DNA from: Bacteroidia bacterium
GTDB lineage: Bacteria > Bacteroidota > Bacteroidia > Flavobacteriales_D > Cryomorphaceae
DNA: 64,000 nt
NCBI GenBank assembly: GCA_030427905.1
Contig: JAUICL010000001.1
Coordinates: 124,001-188,000, forward strand
Reading direction: 5' to 3'
A program made the translations under genes and the position numbers. Below the pieces are notes generated by a model. The model had not been told where the DNA came from, searched no databases, and saw only the letters and a list, made by a program, of their open reading frames with translations. This document shows, in pieces, positions 25,463 through 30,894 of the stretch; within the stretch, counting starts at the first letter, position 1, and the number at the start of each line of letters is the position of its first letter.

Positions 25463-26167
25463 ATGGCATCAAAAGTCAAAATATTGCTCGTGGAAGATGA
25501 CCCTAGTCTGGGGTTTGTTATTCAAGATTCTCTCAAAGAAGAAGGCTATACGGTGCACTTAGCTCGTGATGGAAAAGAAGGCCTGAGTCAGTTTCACGCA
25601 CAGGAATACGACCTATGTCTGCTCGACGTGATGATGCCAAAGAAAGACGGCTTCGAGCTCGCTGAAGATATCCGAAAGGTAAATTCTGAAATTCCCATCA
25701 TCTTTCTCTCGGCCAAGTCGATGGTGGAAGACAAAATAAAAGGACTCAAATCGGGAGCCGACGACTATATCACCAAGCCGTTTAGCCAGGAAGAATTAAC
25801 GCTGCGGATTGATGCTATTCTAAAGCGGACGCGAGCAGGTGGAAAAGACGAAGAGTCAAACTCACACATTCACCAACTCAGCAATTACACCTTCAATACA
25901 AATACATACGAATTGAAAGGACCGGAATTTGAACGCATCTTAACCAAAAAAGAAGCGGGAATCCTCAAGCTTTTGGCAGAGAACGTCAATAAAGTCATTG
26001 AGCGTGAGCTGATCGCTAATCTCGTTTGGGGTGATGACAGCTACTTCGTTGGGCGGAGCCTCGATGTGTTTATCACTCGCTTGCGCAAGTACTTTTCGAA
26101 AGATCCTTCAATCGCCATCACCAACATCCACGGCATTGGGTTTAAGCTCGAAACTACAGATGCTTAA
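25463..26167 (+). CDS. OmpR-family response regulator
   Basis: The 234-residue protein has a receiver domain (acidic pocket VEDD, phospho-acceptor Asp in LCLLDVMMPKKDG, Lys in ITKPFS) and a C-terminal winged-helix DNA-binding domain (LTKKEAGILKLLAE, FITRLRKYFSKDP, NIHGIGFKLE). It is the partner of the preceding kinase. Its stop overlaps the stop of the convergent phosphatase gene by 4 bases, so no terminator separates them. Confidence 0.95.
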   Translation: MASKVKILLVEDDPSLGFVIQDSLKEEGYTVHLARDGKEGLSQFHAQEYDLCLLDVMMPKKDGFELAEDIRKVNSEIPIIFLSAKSMVEDKIKGLKSGADDYITKPFSQEELTLRIDAILKRTRAGGKDEESNSHIHQLSNYTFNTNTYELKGPEFERILTKKEAGILKLLAENVNKVIERELIANLVWGDDSYFVGRSLDVFITRLRKYFSKDPSIAITNIHGIGFKLETTDA

Positions 26168-27630
26168 AACCGAACCCCAATCACCAAGACATCGTCAATC
26201 TGGCTCTGATTGCCCTTCCATTCGTTGAAGGACCTATTCAAGATCTCAAGCTGGCGTTCCATCGGAGCGTGATTGACTTCGAGCAGAAGATCTCGAAATC
26301 TACGCATGGAGTATTTTTTATCTCTTGAACCACCAAACTGATCGGCAAATCCATCCGAAATCAAGTACACGCAATCTCCTTTTTGAAACTCCATGCTGTG
26401 GGTGGTAAAGGGTTCATTCTCCAGAACGTAGTGCGTCCCTATCGGCATTTTGTCGCCTTTGACGATTTGTACATCGTTGTCTCTGACGAGAATCAGCGGA
26501 TTGTTCGCACCGGCAAACGAAAGAGTTCCAGTCGCATGGTTGACCGCAATCAACGCCATATCCATGCTATCGCTACTCTTTCCATTACCTTGCTTGAGTG
26601 AGTCGATCACTTCCTTGCGAAGGGTGTTTAGAATGGTTCCTGGGTCAAAGTTGCGCTCATCGCTAATAACTTTGTTCATCAAGGTATTCCCAATCATACT
26701 CATAAATGCCCCAGGAACTCCGTGCCCTGTACAATCGACCGCAGCGAGAATCGAGACATCACCAAAATGCTTGAACCAATAAAAGTCTCCACTTACAATG
26801 TCTTTGGGCAGGTAGAGAACGAAATGGTCTTTGAAAACTTCGCCGATGGCTTCTTGATTTGGCAAGATGGCCTCTTGAATATTCTGGGCGTATTCGATAC
26901 TCTCGATGATATCCTGACTCTTCTCTTCTACGAGATCTTTTTGGATCACCAATTCCTTATTTGTCTCTTCCAATGCCAATCGGGCTATGGTGGCCTTCTT
27001 GTTTAAGTTGTAACGCGTCTGGATAAGGAGAATCGAAAAAACAGCCACCGACAAGGTCAAAATACCTCCAGCCGATAAAAGCGTCGTCACATCCACCGGG
27101 CTATTGACATTGAGAAAGTATAGGTTAGCCAGAAGCGATATGAGAAAGATTGAAATCGAGAATTTCATATCCCAAACCACGAGCATTCCCGCTCCGATAA
27201 AAACAGCGATGTAAGAGAGCGTGTGCTTTTGGATAAACTCGGCATCCATATAGCTCCACATATAGGCGTTCTCGATGCATATCAGGACGAAAGGGATATA
27301 GATAACCCATTCTACGCTCCAGTTTTGTCTTTTGTGAAGGATGATCCCCAGCAGGGTGATCAGTGAGACTGCCAACCGCACTTGAAAAAAATCGGCCCAA
27401 AGGTGTGGGAAGTTGACATAGTCAGCAGCGGAGAAAACCAAGTTGAAGGCAAAACCTACCCAAGCACCGATCAAGTGGTATCGACTAGCCGATTTCTTGA
27501 TCTCGGTCTTCCATCTTTCCTCGGCCTTTTGCGGCTTTGCTTCTATCTGGCTGGCCAGTGGCGCAGCCGTAAACCCTTTTTGTTCTCTCGGAATTTCAAG
27601 GGCAATAGATTCTCCTAAAAAAGTTGACAT
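26164..27630 (-). CDS. membrane-bound SpoIIE/PP2C-type phosphatase
   Basis: The 488-residue protein combines about six transmembrane helices (residues 50-210), a coiled coil (about 218-265) and a C-terminal SpoIIE-type PP2C phosphatase domain. Metal-binding motifs are visible: DIVSGDFYW, AVDCTGHGVPGAFMS, LISDGFADQ and SQIDDVLVIG. Such proteins dephosphorylate anti-sigma-factor antagonists or similar partners in signalling. No partner STAS or kinase gene is adjacent; the neighbours are the convergent response regulator and the repeat island, into which its upstream region reaches. Bacteroidota often have many paralogues whose targets are unknown. Confidence 0.92.
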   Translation of the reverse strand: MSTFLGESIALEIPREQKGFTAAPLASQIEAKPQKAEERWKTEIKKSASRYHLIGAWVGFAFNLVFSAADYVNFPHLWADFFQVRLAVSLITLLGIILHKRQNWSVEWVIYIPFVLICIENAYMWSYMDAEFIQKHTLSYIAVFIGAGMLVVWDMKFSISIFLISLLANLYFLNVNSPVDVTTLLSAGGILTLSVAVFSILLIQTRYNLNKKATIARLALEETNKELVIQKDLVEEKSQDIIESIEYAQNIQEAILPNQEAIGEVFKDHFVLYLPKDIVSGDFYWFKHFGDVSILAAVDCTGHGVPGAFMSMIGNTLMNKVISDERNFDPGTILNTLRKEVIDSLKQGNGKSSDSMDMALIAVNHATGTLSFAGANNPLILVRDNDVQIVKGDKMPIGTHYVLENEPFTTHSMEFQKGDCVYLISDGFADQFGGSRDKKYSMRRFRDLLLEVNHAPMERQLEILNRSFNEWKGNQSQIDDVLVIGVRF

Positions 27631-27694: not shown

Positions 27695-27738
27695 CGATCC
27701 GCTGCAATTGCAATGCAACGGCACCAAATCTAAGTTTT
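27695..27738 (+). repeat. degenerate left-end palindrome (copy L1)
   Basis: A 27-bp degenerate copy (27695-27721) of the island's left-end palindrome is followed by a decayed copy of the usual tail (CACCAAATCTAAGTTTT). It is the outermost left copy. The remaining bases from 27631 to 27844 hold no gene that I can see. Confidence 0.7.
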
Positions 27739-27844
27739 CTCTTCAATACTCCATACAACCCCGCTCCGAAGCAAGGGATACTTCACACTAAGGACCAAAC
27801 CATTTGAAGCAGATCAAAAGCTGCTCACCACGCTAGTGCCGCCT

Positions 27845-28026
27845 CCCAATTCACAGCCGTCCACCCAAGCCCTAAACCACTCCCTATCAACAAAGCTCTA
27901 GTTACGGTCTTCAGACGGTGTCCTGACGGTCTCCTTACGGTCTCTTTACGGTCATGTGACGGTCTGAATACGGTCTAAACACAGTCGAAATACGTTCGCG
28001 CACAGACCAAAACCGTCTAAACACCC
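27845..28026. repeat. 182-bp repeat block 1 with nine 11-bp units
   Basis: This block is about 90 per cent similar by eye to 30518-30699. After a 59-bp leader it has nine units of the form ACGGTCTNNNN starting at 27904, 27915, 27926, 27937, 27948, 27959, 27970, 27981 and 27992, exactly 11 bases apart, the last two degenerate. A shared trailer (CAGACCAAAACCG, then CTAAACACCC) closes it. No frame of note crosses it. An 11-bp period places every unit on nearly the same face of the helix. Confidence 0.9.
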
Positions 28027-28182
28027 GCTTCGAAGCATTTGCAATGCTGCGGTCTTCCAAATCTAGTTTTTAACCGTCTAATTCCTACGGAGTGGTGCTC
28101 GTTACTAACCGTATTACTTTTCTAAGTTGGGAGTATGCAGTTCGGGCTTTAAGTTCCGCAGCATTGCAAATGCAGCGGAGCG
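28026..28182 (+). repeat. MITE-like element, copy 2 (157 bp)
   Basis: A left palindrome (28026-28052) and an inverted right palindrome (28156-28182) bracket about 100 bp without a gene. The interior starts with the same tail that precedes the transposase gene (CCAAATCTAGTTTTTAACCG) and ends with the same approach to the right end (AAGTTCCGCAGC) seen after the transposase. It looks like the transposase element with the gene deleted. Confidence 0.85.
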
Positions 28183-28191
28183 AGATAATTG

Positions 28192-28464
28192 TCAAATTTC
28201 AGACCCTTTAAAAACAAATATCATTGAGACTAGGAATAAACACATGGCTAAATTAAAAACTGAAACTGTCAGTGAAAATCGATTTCTATTTAATACATAG
28301 AAAACAGCAGAAAGCATCATCCATATTGAAAACAGTGATACATAAACCAAATCACCAAGCCCATACCCCAAAGTAAGGTCTAAAATAAAAAAGCGGACTG
28401 CAAAAATTAGGTAGAGTATTGAGTAAGAATAAAAGGATATATGTTTAAATCTCTTATTTCCCAT
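28192..28464 (-). CDS. small three-helix membrane protein, function unknown
   Basis: The 90-residue protein consists almost wholly of three hydrophobic helices: about SFYSYSILYLIFAVRFFI, then LVYVSLFSIWMMLSAVFYVL, then VFNLAMCLFLVSMIFVF. It is likely an inner-membrane protein. ATG at 28464 was preferred over an in-frame GTG at 28473; the GGAG of the neighbouring left palindrome lies 12-15 bases upstream and could act as ribosome site. The gene fits exactly between two palindromic elements, with its stop 9 bases from one and its start 9 bases from the other. I do not recognise it. Confidence 0.65.
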   Translation of the reverse strand: MGNKRFKHISFYSYSILYLIFAVRFFILDLTLGYGLGDLVYVSLFSIWMMLSAVFYVLNRNRFSLTVSVFNLAMCLFLVSMIFVFKGSEI

Positions 28465-28473
28465 CTTGGTCAC

Positions 28474-28500
28474 CGCTCCGCAGCATTTGCAATGCTGCGG
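28474..28500 (+). repeat. left terminal palindrome of the RAYT unit
   Basis: The 27-bp sequence starts CGCTCCGCAGCATTTGC and ends AATGCTGCGG. Its inner 23 bases form a stem of ten pairs with a three-base loop. The outer CGCTCCG extension is what distinguishes left from right orientation. Confidence 0.9.
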
Positions 28501-28548
28501 TCTCCCAAATCTAGTTTTTTAACCGTGTAATTCCTACCTTATAAAGTT

Positions 28549-29121
28549 GTGGAACAAGGCGTCAAGCAAAATATCAAATTCAACAAATCATACTTCTTAA
28601 CCATTACTGTTGAAGGTTGGGTCGATGTTTTCACGAGAGACATTTATCGAAATATAATTATTGACTCTTTGCGATTTTGCATCTATAAAAAAGGGTTAAA
28701 CGTATATGCCTACGTCGTGATGAGCAATCACATACACATGATCGCAAACTGCAATGAGCCTTTCCAACTTCAAGAGACTATTCGGGACTTTAAGAAGTTT
28801 ACAGCCAAAAGGATTCTCGCACAAATTGAAAATGGAAACGAAAGCAGAAAGGAATGGATGCTCGATCTTTTCTCGAGTTTTGGACAAGAGAGCCAGCGGC
28901 ACAAGAAATTCAAGTTTTGGAAATCAGGTAACCATGCCATCGAACTGTACAATTCGAGATTTACCTGGAACAAGGTGAACTACATCCACCAAAATCCTGT
29001 CCGAGCAAATCTCGTTAACAAACCAACAGATTGGAAGTACTCTTCAGCGTCTAACTACATCGAAAGCGAGTCTCTGGTTCCTGAAATCATTTTGATAACT
29101 CCTCCACTTAATTATGGCTAA
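28549..29121 (+). CDS. REP-associated tyrosine transposase (RAYT, Y1 family)
   Basis: RAYTs are single-copy relatives of IS200/IS605 transposases that nick and join single-stranded palindromic REP sequences. The 190-residue protein starts at GTG. It has the HUH metal motif as HIH in MSNHIHMIA near residue 65 and the catalytic tyrosine in the RAYT signature YIHQNPVRANLV, followed by WKYSSASNYI. A helical region with IRDFKKFTAKRIL lies between. Length is typical. It lies between left and right 27-bp palindromes that are its likely substrates. All key residues are present, so it may be active. Confidence 0.92.
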   Translation: MEQGVKQNIKFNKSYFLTITVEGWVDVFTRDIYRNIIIDSLRFCIYKKGLNVYAYVVMSNHIHMIANCNEPFQLQETIRDFKKFTAKRILAQIENGNESRKEWMLDLFSSFGQESQRHKKFKFWKSGNHAIELYNSRFTWNKVNYIHQNPVRANLVNKPTDWKYSSASNYIESESLVPEIILITPPLNYG

Positions 29122-29183
29122 AATCCTTGCTAAACCGTAATGCTCCTTCAGGGCAGGCCGACATTCTTTGCGGGTTTATAGTT

Positions 29184-29210
29184 CCGCAGCATTGCAAATG
29201 CAGCGGAGCG
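29184..29210 (-). repeat. right terminal palindrome of the RAYT unit
   Basis: The reverse complement of this 27-bp sequence equals the left end at 28474-28500 except for one base (CCGCT instead of CCGCA). Its outer edge is GCGGAGCG. Confidence 0.9.
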
Positions 29211-29228
29211 AATAACTAGTAAGCTTTA

Positions 29229-29693
29229 CTAAAATGTATCTAAACTATCTAAAAATGCATTGAAACTATAGGTTATTGGAATGATATTCTTACTGATCCC
29301 TTCCAATTCATGATCCCAAAAATACACGCACCCATGTGTCCCATCTTCACGAGATGAGATACAGATTAAATTGCCACCCGAATCAATTGCCAACGGCAAC
29401 AAATACTCTGGCAATCTTTTATTCAAAATATACATCTCAAATACTTCTTTCATCGATAGCCCCCCATTAACCTCTCCGATCGAAAAAAAATACTGAATAT
29501 CAGAACCATCACTAGAGTTTTGAAAATTAAACTCTGACGGCTCAACCTCACCTCCATTACTCACTAGCAAAAAGCTTTTGTATTCTTCCGGAAACTTGAT
29601 GGAATACTCATTCTCGAATCGCTCAATTTCTTCAAGAGATAAGTCTTGTCCGTGATTCCTAAAAATGCATTTCCTAATTCTCTTCATTTTCAA
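29229..29693 (-). CDS. SMI1/KNR4 (SUKH) family protein, orphan immunity-like
   Basis: The 154-residue protein has the SUKH pattern: LSLEEIERFENEYSIKFPEE, then FLLVSNGGEVEPSEF, YLLPLAIDSGGNLICIS, GCVYFWDHE and a final FNAFLDSLD. In bacteria most SUKH proteins neutralise nuclease or other toxins delivered by contact-dependent or secretion systems, usually next to the toxin gene. No toxin is visible here; the gene lies alone between the right end of the RAYT unit and a solo left palindrome. It may be a captured or spare immunity gene. Some SUKH proteins have other roles. Confidence 0.85.
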   Translation of the reverse strand: MKMKRIRKCIFRNHGQDLSLEEIERFENEYSIKFPEEYKSFLLVSNGGEVEPSEFNFQNSSDGSDIQYFFSIGEVNGGLSMKEVFEMYILNKRLPEYLLPLAIDSGGNLICISSREDGTHGCVYFWDHELEGISKNIIPITYSFNAFLDSLDTF

Positions 29694-29788
29694 TCATTTA
29701 AAAACCTGGACCTTCAAATGTACTTTTAACACCTACAGGTAATTCACCTACTTTTTTTTTGAAAACTGTCTAATCAAAGTGAATCCCC

Positions 29789-29858
29789 CGATCCGCCGCA
29801 TTTGCAATGCTGCGGCCTCCCAAATCTAGTTTTTTAACCAAGCAATTGCTCCGGAGCG
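29789..29858 (+). repeat. truncated element copy 4 (left end plus tail)
   Basis: A left palindrome (29789-29815) is followed by the standard tail (CCAAATCTAGTTTTTTAACC) and then, after about 15 bases, only the outermost CGGAGCG of a right end. It looks like the element with nearly all of its interior and most of the right palindrome removed. Confidence 0.75.
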
Positions 29859-29870
29859 GCTAATCATGGT

Positions 29871-30341
29871 TTACTCAAACACCAAAGGGCTGGATAAAAT
29901 AAGATAGTCGTCTGAAATCCTTCCCTGAAACAATGAATTTTTTCTAAAATTATAAACTCCGAATTGACCAGTCCGAGAATAAGTTGTAAAGATTGTTGCA
30001 CCCAATGAGCTCAGATATTTTTGAATGTACAGAGAATCCTGACTTTCAACTGGTATTGCGTAACTGACCATATATAAGTCATCATTGTTCTTACCAGAAT
30101 AAATCAACCTAATGGTAGTATCTCCATTGATCGTTTCATAAGCATCAATGTCTATTCCTTGTACCTTATTATATGAGACACAATCTGCTAAAAGATGTTT
30201 ATCTATCGTTTCTCTTGGAATACTGAACAGACTTGTATCCATATTGCATTGGTCTGCTACACTGCAACAATTAATACTGATTATAATCACAACGATAATT
30301 AATCCCTTCACTTTAGCTTTCTGTATTTGATCGTGCATCAT
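29871..30341 (-). CDS. uncharacterised exported or lipoprotein-like protein
   Basis: The 156-residue protein has a basic N-terminus and a hydrophobic segment (VKGLIIVVIIISINCCSV), so it is exported or membrane-anchored. The SINC sequence is a poor lipobox, so lipidation is uncertain. The mature part is polar with beta-prone stretches (INGDTTIRLIYSGKNNDDL) and no motif I recognise. The GGAG in the flanking left palindrome (copy 5) lies about a dozen bases before the ATG, and the stop is 13 bases from copy 4. So the gene fills the space between two elements. Confidence 0.65.
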   Translation of the reverse strand: MMHDQIQKAKVKGLIIVVIIISINCCSVADQCNMDTSLFSIPRETIDKHLLADCVSYNKVQGIDIDAYETINGDTTIRLIYSGKNNDDLYMVSYAIPVESQDSLYIQKYLSSLGATIFTTYSRTGQFGVYNFRKNSLFQGRISDDYLILSSPLVFE

Positions 30342-30351
30342 CTAACCGCTC

Positions 30352-30509
30352 CGCTCCGCTGCATTTGCAATGCAGCGGCCTCCCAAATCTAGTTTTTTAA
30401 CCGTGTAATTCCTACGGAGTAGTGCTTGTTACTTACCGTATTTCTTATCTAAGTTGGCAAGATAAACTTCGGGGTTCAAGTTCCGCAGCATTGCAAATGC
30501 AGCGGAGCG
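30352..30509 (+). repeat. MITE-like element, copy 5 (158 bp)
   Basis: Left palindrome 30352-30378 and right palindrome 30483-30509 bracket a gene-less interior that aligns with copy 2 along its full length (for example TTCCTACGGAGTAGTGCTTG against TTCCTACGGAGTGGTGCTCG). Copy 2 is 157 bp and this copy is 158 bp. Confidence 0.87.
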
Positions 30510-30517
30510 GCTTGCCC

Positions 30518-30699
30518 CCCAATTCACAGCCGTCCACCCAAGCCCTAAACCACACCAAATCAACAAAGCTCTAGTTACGGTCTCCTGACGGTCTCCTTAC
30601 GGTCTCTTTACGGTCATGTGACGGTCTGAATACGGTCTGAATACGGTCTAAACACTGTCGAAATACGTTCATACTCAGACCAAAACCGCCTAAACACCC
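30518..30699. repeat. 182-bp repeat block 2 with nine 11-bp units
   Basis: This is the partner of 27845-28026, in the same orientation. Unit starts are 30577, 30588, 30599, 30610, 30621, 30632, 30643, 30654 and 30665, again exactly 11 apart. Compared with block 1 it has one unit fewer at the beginning and one extra GAAT-type unit near the end, so units have been gained and lost while the total stayed at nine. Confidence 0.9.
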
Positions 30700-30735
30700 A
30701 TTAGAAGCTCATACAACCACTTAAATTTCAAGACG

Positions 30736-30894
30736 ATGTCAGAACAAATTGGCCCATTTCAATTCAAAAGAAAGCTGGGAAACCTGGGAGGCGAACAAAT
30801 CAAAGGCAAGTATATAGTCACACTCCCCGCAAAGATCCGCAGCATTATAAATGCAGCGGAGCACCGCGGGTTTGAACCGAAGTTGATTTTATAG
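30736..30894 (+). CDS. possible 52-residue ORF, AbrB-like or remnant
   Basis: A 52-codon frame begins MSEQIGPFQFKRKLGNL. The segment KGKYIVTLPAKIRSI loosely recalls the swapped-hairpin AbrB/MazE DNA-binding fold. Its second half coincides with a right-type palindrome (30837-30863), which is therefore translated as IRSIINAAEHR. Beyond the stop a different frame reads FIEQGQWVIKKR, which could mean a frameshifted remnant of a longer gene. No clear ribosome site. Treat as tentative. Confidence 0.35.
   Translation: MSEQIGPFQFKRKLGNLGGEQIKGKYIVTLPAKIRSIINAAEHRGFEPKLIL
30837..30863 (-). repeat. solo right-end palindrome (copy R6)
   Basis: A 27-bp right-type end with the loop changed to ATA and a final A for G. 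It is the outermost right copy, so with L1 at 27695 it brackets the whole island. Confidence 0.75.

Follow-up and report, generated by a model that had tools for sequence, protein, structure and literature searches.

The array at positions 27695–30863 is best read as a small island of foreign-looking genes into which a domesticated transposase of a known kind has spread together with its palindromes, imitating gene cassettes. The palindromes have their ends in common in all copies, lie in one orientation and are clustered far beyond chance. Positions refer to the window, the whole 64,000-nt stretch of DNA analysed, which belongs to a genome of about 3.8 Mb (G000, the source of the array). The following features are discussed below:

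SpoIIE-type phosphatase gene, 26164–27630, minus strand: membrane N-terminus, missing at the junction in relatives
L1, 27695–27740, plus strand: truncated left-end palindrome plus flank CCAAATCTAAG, without R partner
D2a, 27841–28026, plus strand: first 186-nt direct repeat, with ACGGTCT-type tandem units, ends at L2
L2-R2, 28025–28182, plus strand: gene-less miniature element of 158 bp, 86% identical to L5-R5
g1, 28192–28473, minus strand: membrane protein of ≤93 aa (ATG at 28464), 31% GC, without family
L3-RAYT-R3, 28473–29210, plus strand: complete RAYT element (REPtron)
RAYT, 28549–29121, plus strand: 190 aa, HIH motif intact, as is the conserved tyrosine of YIHxNPV
SUKH-family protein, 29229–29693, minus strand: 154 aa, 36% GC, Pfam PF09346 (1.7e-23)
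L4, 29788–29859, plus strand: left end plus about 45 nt of flanking sequence, its R end lost (7-nt stub at most)
g3, 29871–30341, minus strand: exported or lipoprotein-like, ≤156 aa, 34% GC, without family
L5-R5, 30351–30510, plus strand: miniature element of 160 bp, ends pair over 23 or more bp, REPIN-like
D2b, 30514–30827, plus strand: second D2 copy (repeat 30514–30699), runs into a gene remnant and is then cut
R6, 30829–30863, plus strand: variant right-end palindrome that cuts off the gene remnant, without an adjoining L partner

Palindromes and the RAYT element

The initial annotation had described five left-type (L) and three full right-type (R) palindromes in one orientation, and pattern search and alignment recovered all of them as described. 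The L-type palindromes start at 27695, 28025, 28473, 29788 and 30351; those of R type lie at 28156–28182, 29184–29210 and 30483–30510, with a variant carrying an AT core at 30837–30862. Only the stub of R assigned to L4 proved weak, as it comprises 7 nt (GGAGCGG) and may simply be diverged L flank. A 27-nt core, CGCTCCGCNGCATTTGCAATGCNGCGG, is common to all nine palindromes with few differences, L and R being reverse complements of each other, and in the alignment the similarity among the nine breaks off abruptly at the outer edge of this core. All nine lie within 3.2 kb in uniform L-then-R order. Further copies in G000 were sought by pattern and DNA searches; the core pattern, with ≤2 mismatches allowed, gave 20 matches on both strands of the 3.81-Mb genome, the reversed control pattern none. 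Nine of the 18 distinct genomic sites fall inside 3.2 kb, compared to a maximum of 3 in 20,000 trials of random placement, and the clustering is thus not due to chance. Matches beyond the array were also found on contigs C1, C2, C3 and C5. Folded as single-stranded DNA, L5-R5 is predicted to form one long hairpin (z = -6.6). No GTAG/GTGG tetranucleotide was found at the palindrome foot when the L and R edges of the array palindromes were aligned, and an Rfam search gave no match.

The nine palindromes are real and cognate to the RAYT encoded at 28549–29121. Judged by its sequence, this protein is a genuine and intact REP-associated transposase: it scores 96.8 bits against NCBIfam NF047646 (REP_Tyr_transpos, cut-off 80), matches Pfam Y1_Tnp, and its HIH motif and YIHxNPV tyrosine align with those of 11 relatives. 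Two inverted cognate palindromes, L3 and R3, flank the gene. Nearly all close RAYT relatives examined likewise carry a palindrome of their own on both sides, truncated loci and those at contig edges aside, which identifies L and R as the ends of the RAYT element; the sequence of the flanking palindrome varies from genome to genome. L3-RAYT-R3 is the autonomous unit; L2-R2 and L5-R5 share its ends and are miniatures that lack a gene, and L1, L4 and R6 are decayed ends of the same family. A contig scan of genomes with RAYT as query yielded one distant match only. GC skew, used as a proxy for replication direction, had mixed signs over 13 RAYT loci and lends no support to a lagging-strand orientation rule. 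Tandem RAYT elements were noted in G004 (L112, 1874–2849); in the first of them the transposase gene has an internal deletion, and this element is a miniature in the making.

The island and its small genes

In three genomes of the same family (G003, G004 and G006) ftsZ and yqeY are followed by 114–851 bp and then by a response-regulator gene and a kinase gene, and in G003 and G006 groL also follows in the syntenic block. The gap between yqeY and the response-regulator gene measures 4.8 kb in G000, and none of RAYT, the SpoIIE gene, g1, SUKH or g3 is present at this junction in the three relatives. Because the synteny is conserved without the insert, the segment 26164–30863 is particular to the G000 lineage, and the locus is a lineage-specific accessory island between yqeY and the response-regulator gene. 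There was no congener of G000 among the genomes searched. Identical order and content in distant relatives, or the three small genes together elsewhere without palindromes, had been considered as counter-evidence to a cassette-like array. Neither was encountered: the locus is absent from the relatives, and a search of the other 59 genomes gave no relative of the SUKH gene. Among the immediate neighbours (SpoIIE-type, response-regulator, HK, YqeY and FtsZ genes) RAYT is indeed the sole recombinase, and no integrase was found among the neighbouring genes.

The small genes alternate with the palindromes and are accessory, as had been proposed: their GC content is 31% (g1), 36% (SUKH) and 34% (g3) versus 45–50% in the flanking genes, and the locus is absent in relatives. 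They are co-oriented and all lie outside the L-R elements. The distances of 9, 18 and 12 bp between stop codons and palindrome edge were reproduced, and two of the three starts are close to the next palindrome (9, about 101 and 8 bp, counted from ATG starts). REPs between convergent genes are mostly located <20 bp from the 3' ends, and those between co-directional genes near the upstream 3' end (PMC3733652), so that a spacing of 9–18 bp from the stop codon is the usual REP position. The assignment of the SUKH protein to its family was upheld. For g1 and g3 no family was found in Pfam, NCBIfam or PADLOC, and PADLOC and NCBIfam gave no match for the small genes of the array. The predicted structure of g1 consists of three helices only, that of g3 had too low a confidence for structure search, and tblastn of plasmids with g3 returned no hit. 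Orphan-immunity arrays of the rAID type are known to carry SUKH proteins as cargo (PMC12247911), which makes a conflict role plausible; g1, SUKH and g3 are putative orphan immunity or similar conflict genes.

The D2 blocks, the gene remnant and the lineage-specific SpoIIE-type gene had been missed in the initial annotation. D2a and D2b are 86–87% identical and bracket the array, which points to duplication of a segment; D2a is moreover 76% identical to a copy at C5:409429. The remnant (30738–30827) is 30 codons long and derives from a paralogue of a gene at C5:409429 that encodes 244 aa; R6 cuts the remnant off. Since D2b with the remnant ends at R6, the gene was presumably clipped by insertion of an element or by recombination at the palindromes. 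The interior of the array shows decay and rearrangement rather than tidy joining of cassettes. Independently of the RAYT palindromes, tandem units with a length of about 11 bp and ACGGTCT at their end occur at many places in G000, and possibly constitute a regulatory or separate repeat family:

ACGGTCT-type tandem units: window 27900–27990 and 30577–30670; C5:409429, 570106, 779618 and 985248; C1:185894; C8:220793 and 306670

Similar arrangements in other genomes

The anatomy of the array is repeated at a different junction in G099, a complete genome from an unrelated family. All five close palindrome matches of this genome lie in one 3.4-kb stretch. It contains two RAYT elements, 97–98% identical and 1.31 kb apart, one of them broken, with an unrelated 171-aa gene between them; the whole element was duplicated recently. 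Lone L ends separate further small exported orphan genes. The island is located between duplicated gldM/gldN genes and is missing in the congeners G100 and G102, where these genes adjoin; its small genes have 24–32% GC versus 35–38% in the flanks. Six more small genes of the island are without palindromes, which indicates that palindromes are not required for gene gain.

In the sister genera the palindrome is dispersed in 5 of 7 genomes, mostly beside ordinary genes, and sometimes encloses a nucleotidyltransferase, a lipoprotein gene or an unknown gene. Within G000, repeats with related palindromes enclose small genes at C2:108.7–111.0, C5:518.7–519.6 and C5:1025.3–1025.9 kb, and where ordinary genes converge, other palindromes or repeats are often found between their stop codons, a position known for REPs (PMC3733652) and occupied here by many unrelated repeat copies. 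A 240-bp repeat family with GCGC-type palindromes (70–94% identical; L024, L025, L160, L161 and others) likewise often lies between convergent stops, and encloses DUF2971 (PDC-S31-like) and DUF4468 genes at C2:109–111 kb. In G002 (L231, 1877–3369) a 245-aa gene is bracketed by 95% identical repeats of 239 nt with several palindromes each, and in G036 (L124, 7767–10542) a RAYT gene is split by 2.3 kb with three lipoprotein-type genes (133, 370 and 180 aa). At L112, L119, L121, L242 and L245, in several genomes, RAYTs or palindromes were observed beside Rhs-type toxin tips and small unknown genes, hinting at toxin/immunity islands.

Origin of the array and comparison with known systems

We consider it reasonably probable that local movement or duplication of the RAYT family takes place in L-R units, and that a permissive island favours or tolerates their insertion directly behind stop codons. 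The RAYT, an HUH/Y1 nuclease, would cut the palindrome hairpins as single-stranded DNA, and L-R copies would re-enter the same short stretch, mostly right behind stop codons, where REPs would be tolerated or targeted. The low-GC genes (SUKH, membrane and exported protein) would have come by routes other than RAYT, and the repeats would then allow recombination to duplicate or trim segments, as in the D2 blocks and the gene clipped at R6. Some points stand against local hopping. One gene in each gap is not what random insertion alone would predict, and hopping of a whole RAYT element is itself unusual, as RAYTs are described as present in single copy and not copying themselves (PMC8049555). Furthermore g1, SUKH and g3 are all located immediately behind an L end with an outward TAGATTTG box, for which a purely passive view has only coincidence or shared ancestry to offer. 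Accretion chiefly through homologous recombination, whereby a circle or donor strand with an LR element and genes joined a resident LR and left L2-R2 and L5-R5 in duplicated D2 blocks, seems to us unlikely. It would account for the D2 and LR copies that bracket g1, RAYT, SUKH and g3 symmetrically, and the 86% identity of L2-R2 and L5-R5, which D2a and D2b share, fits one duplication; the G002 gene between palindrome-bearing repeats is a comparable case. However, L3, L4 and R3 inside the insert require extra transposition, the equal divergence of D2 and LR could be coincidence, and 86% identity over 160–190 bp is a poor substrate now. The two processes, recombination between repeats and local RAYT hopping, may also operate side by side.

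The proposal that the RAYT or its substrates collect small genes found no support, as the genes lie outside the L-R elements and small low-GC genes are not significantly enriched near RAYTs (0.27/kb near 14 RAYTs versus 0.16/kb at 20 sites picked at random from an overlapping set of genomes; p=0.08). In a RAYT-based cassette system the enzyme would recognise as one unit either an R end with the L end that follows it or any L...R pair, mobilise the gene between them and build an array of small orphans, functionally like the rAID arrays of tyrosine recombinases. One co-oriented gene per gap, the presence of a SUKH gene as rAID cargo (PMC12247911), the same anatomy in G099 and further enclosed accessory genes (a 159-aa orphan at L027, DUF2971 and DUF4468 proteins at L024, AbiEii with a DUF6922 partner at L114, a nucleotidyltransferase at L232) are consistent with it; we nevertheless judge it improbable, in view also of the six palindrome-free genes in G099 and of the fact that no gene-plus-palindrome unit was found at two loci. 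In G040 and G096 a RAYT element with intact palindromes lies in a 5.5-kb block, 90% identical between the species, that contains no small genes; the element there is passed on vertically and collects nothing. In the open-access literature nothing relevant was found on RAYTs with gene cassettes. Promoters of Bacteroidota have a -7 consensus TAnnTTTG. TAGATTTG, found on the minus strand in each of the five L ends, matches this consensus, and an L end stands directly upstream of each of the genes g1, SUKH, g3 and SpoIIE. A -33 box was not recognised, and since the L ends share descent, the recurrence of TAGATTTG is not independent evidence of function. It is a rather doubtful idea that Bacteroidota RAYTs with paired L and R ends form a single-stranded DNA cassette system, a transposase-based counterpart of rAID, in which each gap would take up one small orphan gene of the conflict type (immunity, toxin-antitoxin or secreted) and the L end would give each acquired gene an outward promoter. 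An integrase-less integron array (CALIN) would likewise consist of small unrelated co-oriented genes with a recurrent palindromic sequence between them, but the palindromes are the RAYT's own ends, the neighbours include no integrase, and no RYYYAAC/GTTRRRY box pair spans any palindrome; we give this reading almost no credence. Integron sites (attC with R' and R'' boxes) are ruled out by the lack of a box pair across any array palindrome.

Like the REPtrons described with REPs, BIMEs and REPINs (PMC2817692, PMC3116915, PMC6006769), the element has an HUH/Y1 RAYT (TnpA-REP) between two inverted palindromes, extra inverted doublets folding into one hairpin, REPs near stop codons and additional copies dispersed in intergenic regions, as also seen in G000. 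In contrast, the genome contains few copies, which concentrate around the RAYT, the gaps are filled by unrelated genes that are intact, no GTAG head was found and a whole RAYT element was duplicated recently in G099. Atypical palindromes have been reported for Bacteroidetes RAYTs of subclass 2.6 (PMC6006769), and the canonical GTAG/GTGG head is not required of all RAYTs. With rAID (recombinase-associated acquired interbacterial defence) of Bacteroidales (PMC12247911) the array shares accessory genes that are short and co-oriented, SUKH among them, as well as a gene for a recombinase and motifs that recur between genes, and it is possible that it represents a RAYT analogue of these orphan-immunity arrays; however, it has a RAYT and no tyrosine recombinase among its neighbours, only three genes, putatively for immunity, and motifs (L/R elements in every gap) that are transposon ends. 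Integrons and CALINs, too, line up small unrelated genes in a single orientation among palindromic repeats; they differ by IntI, attC boxes and the joining of each gene to one site. The parts, RAYT, REP and REPIN, are known; the departure from the usual account of RAYTs lies in a few-copy, locally clustered form among intact orphan genes and in the G099 duplication, and no description of a clustered RAYT form interleaved with orphan genes was found in open-access papers.

RAYTs are described as domesticated and single-copy, and their benefit to the host is an open question. Here and in G099 the elements form clusters with local duplications and alternate with small accessory genes, which makes a role in the growth, expression or reshuffling of islands directly testable. 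If RAYT elements do not aid such islands, the array would be a warning that REP insertion behind stop codons can mimic gene cassettes.
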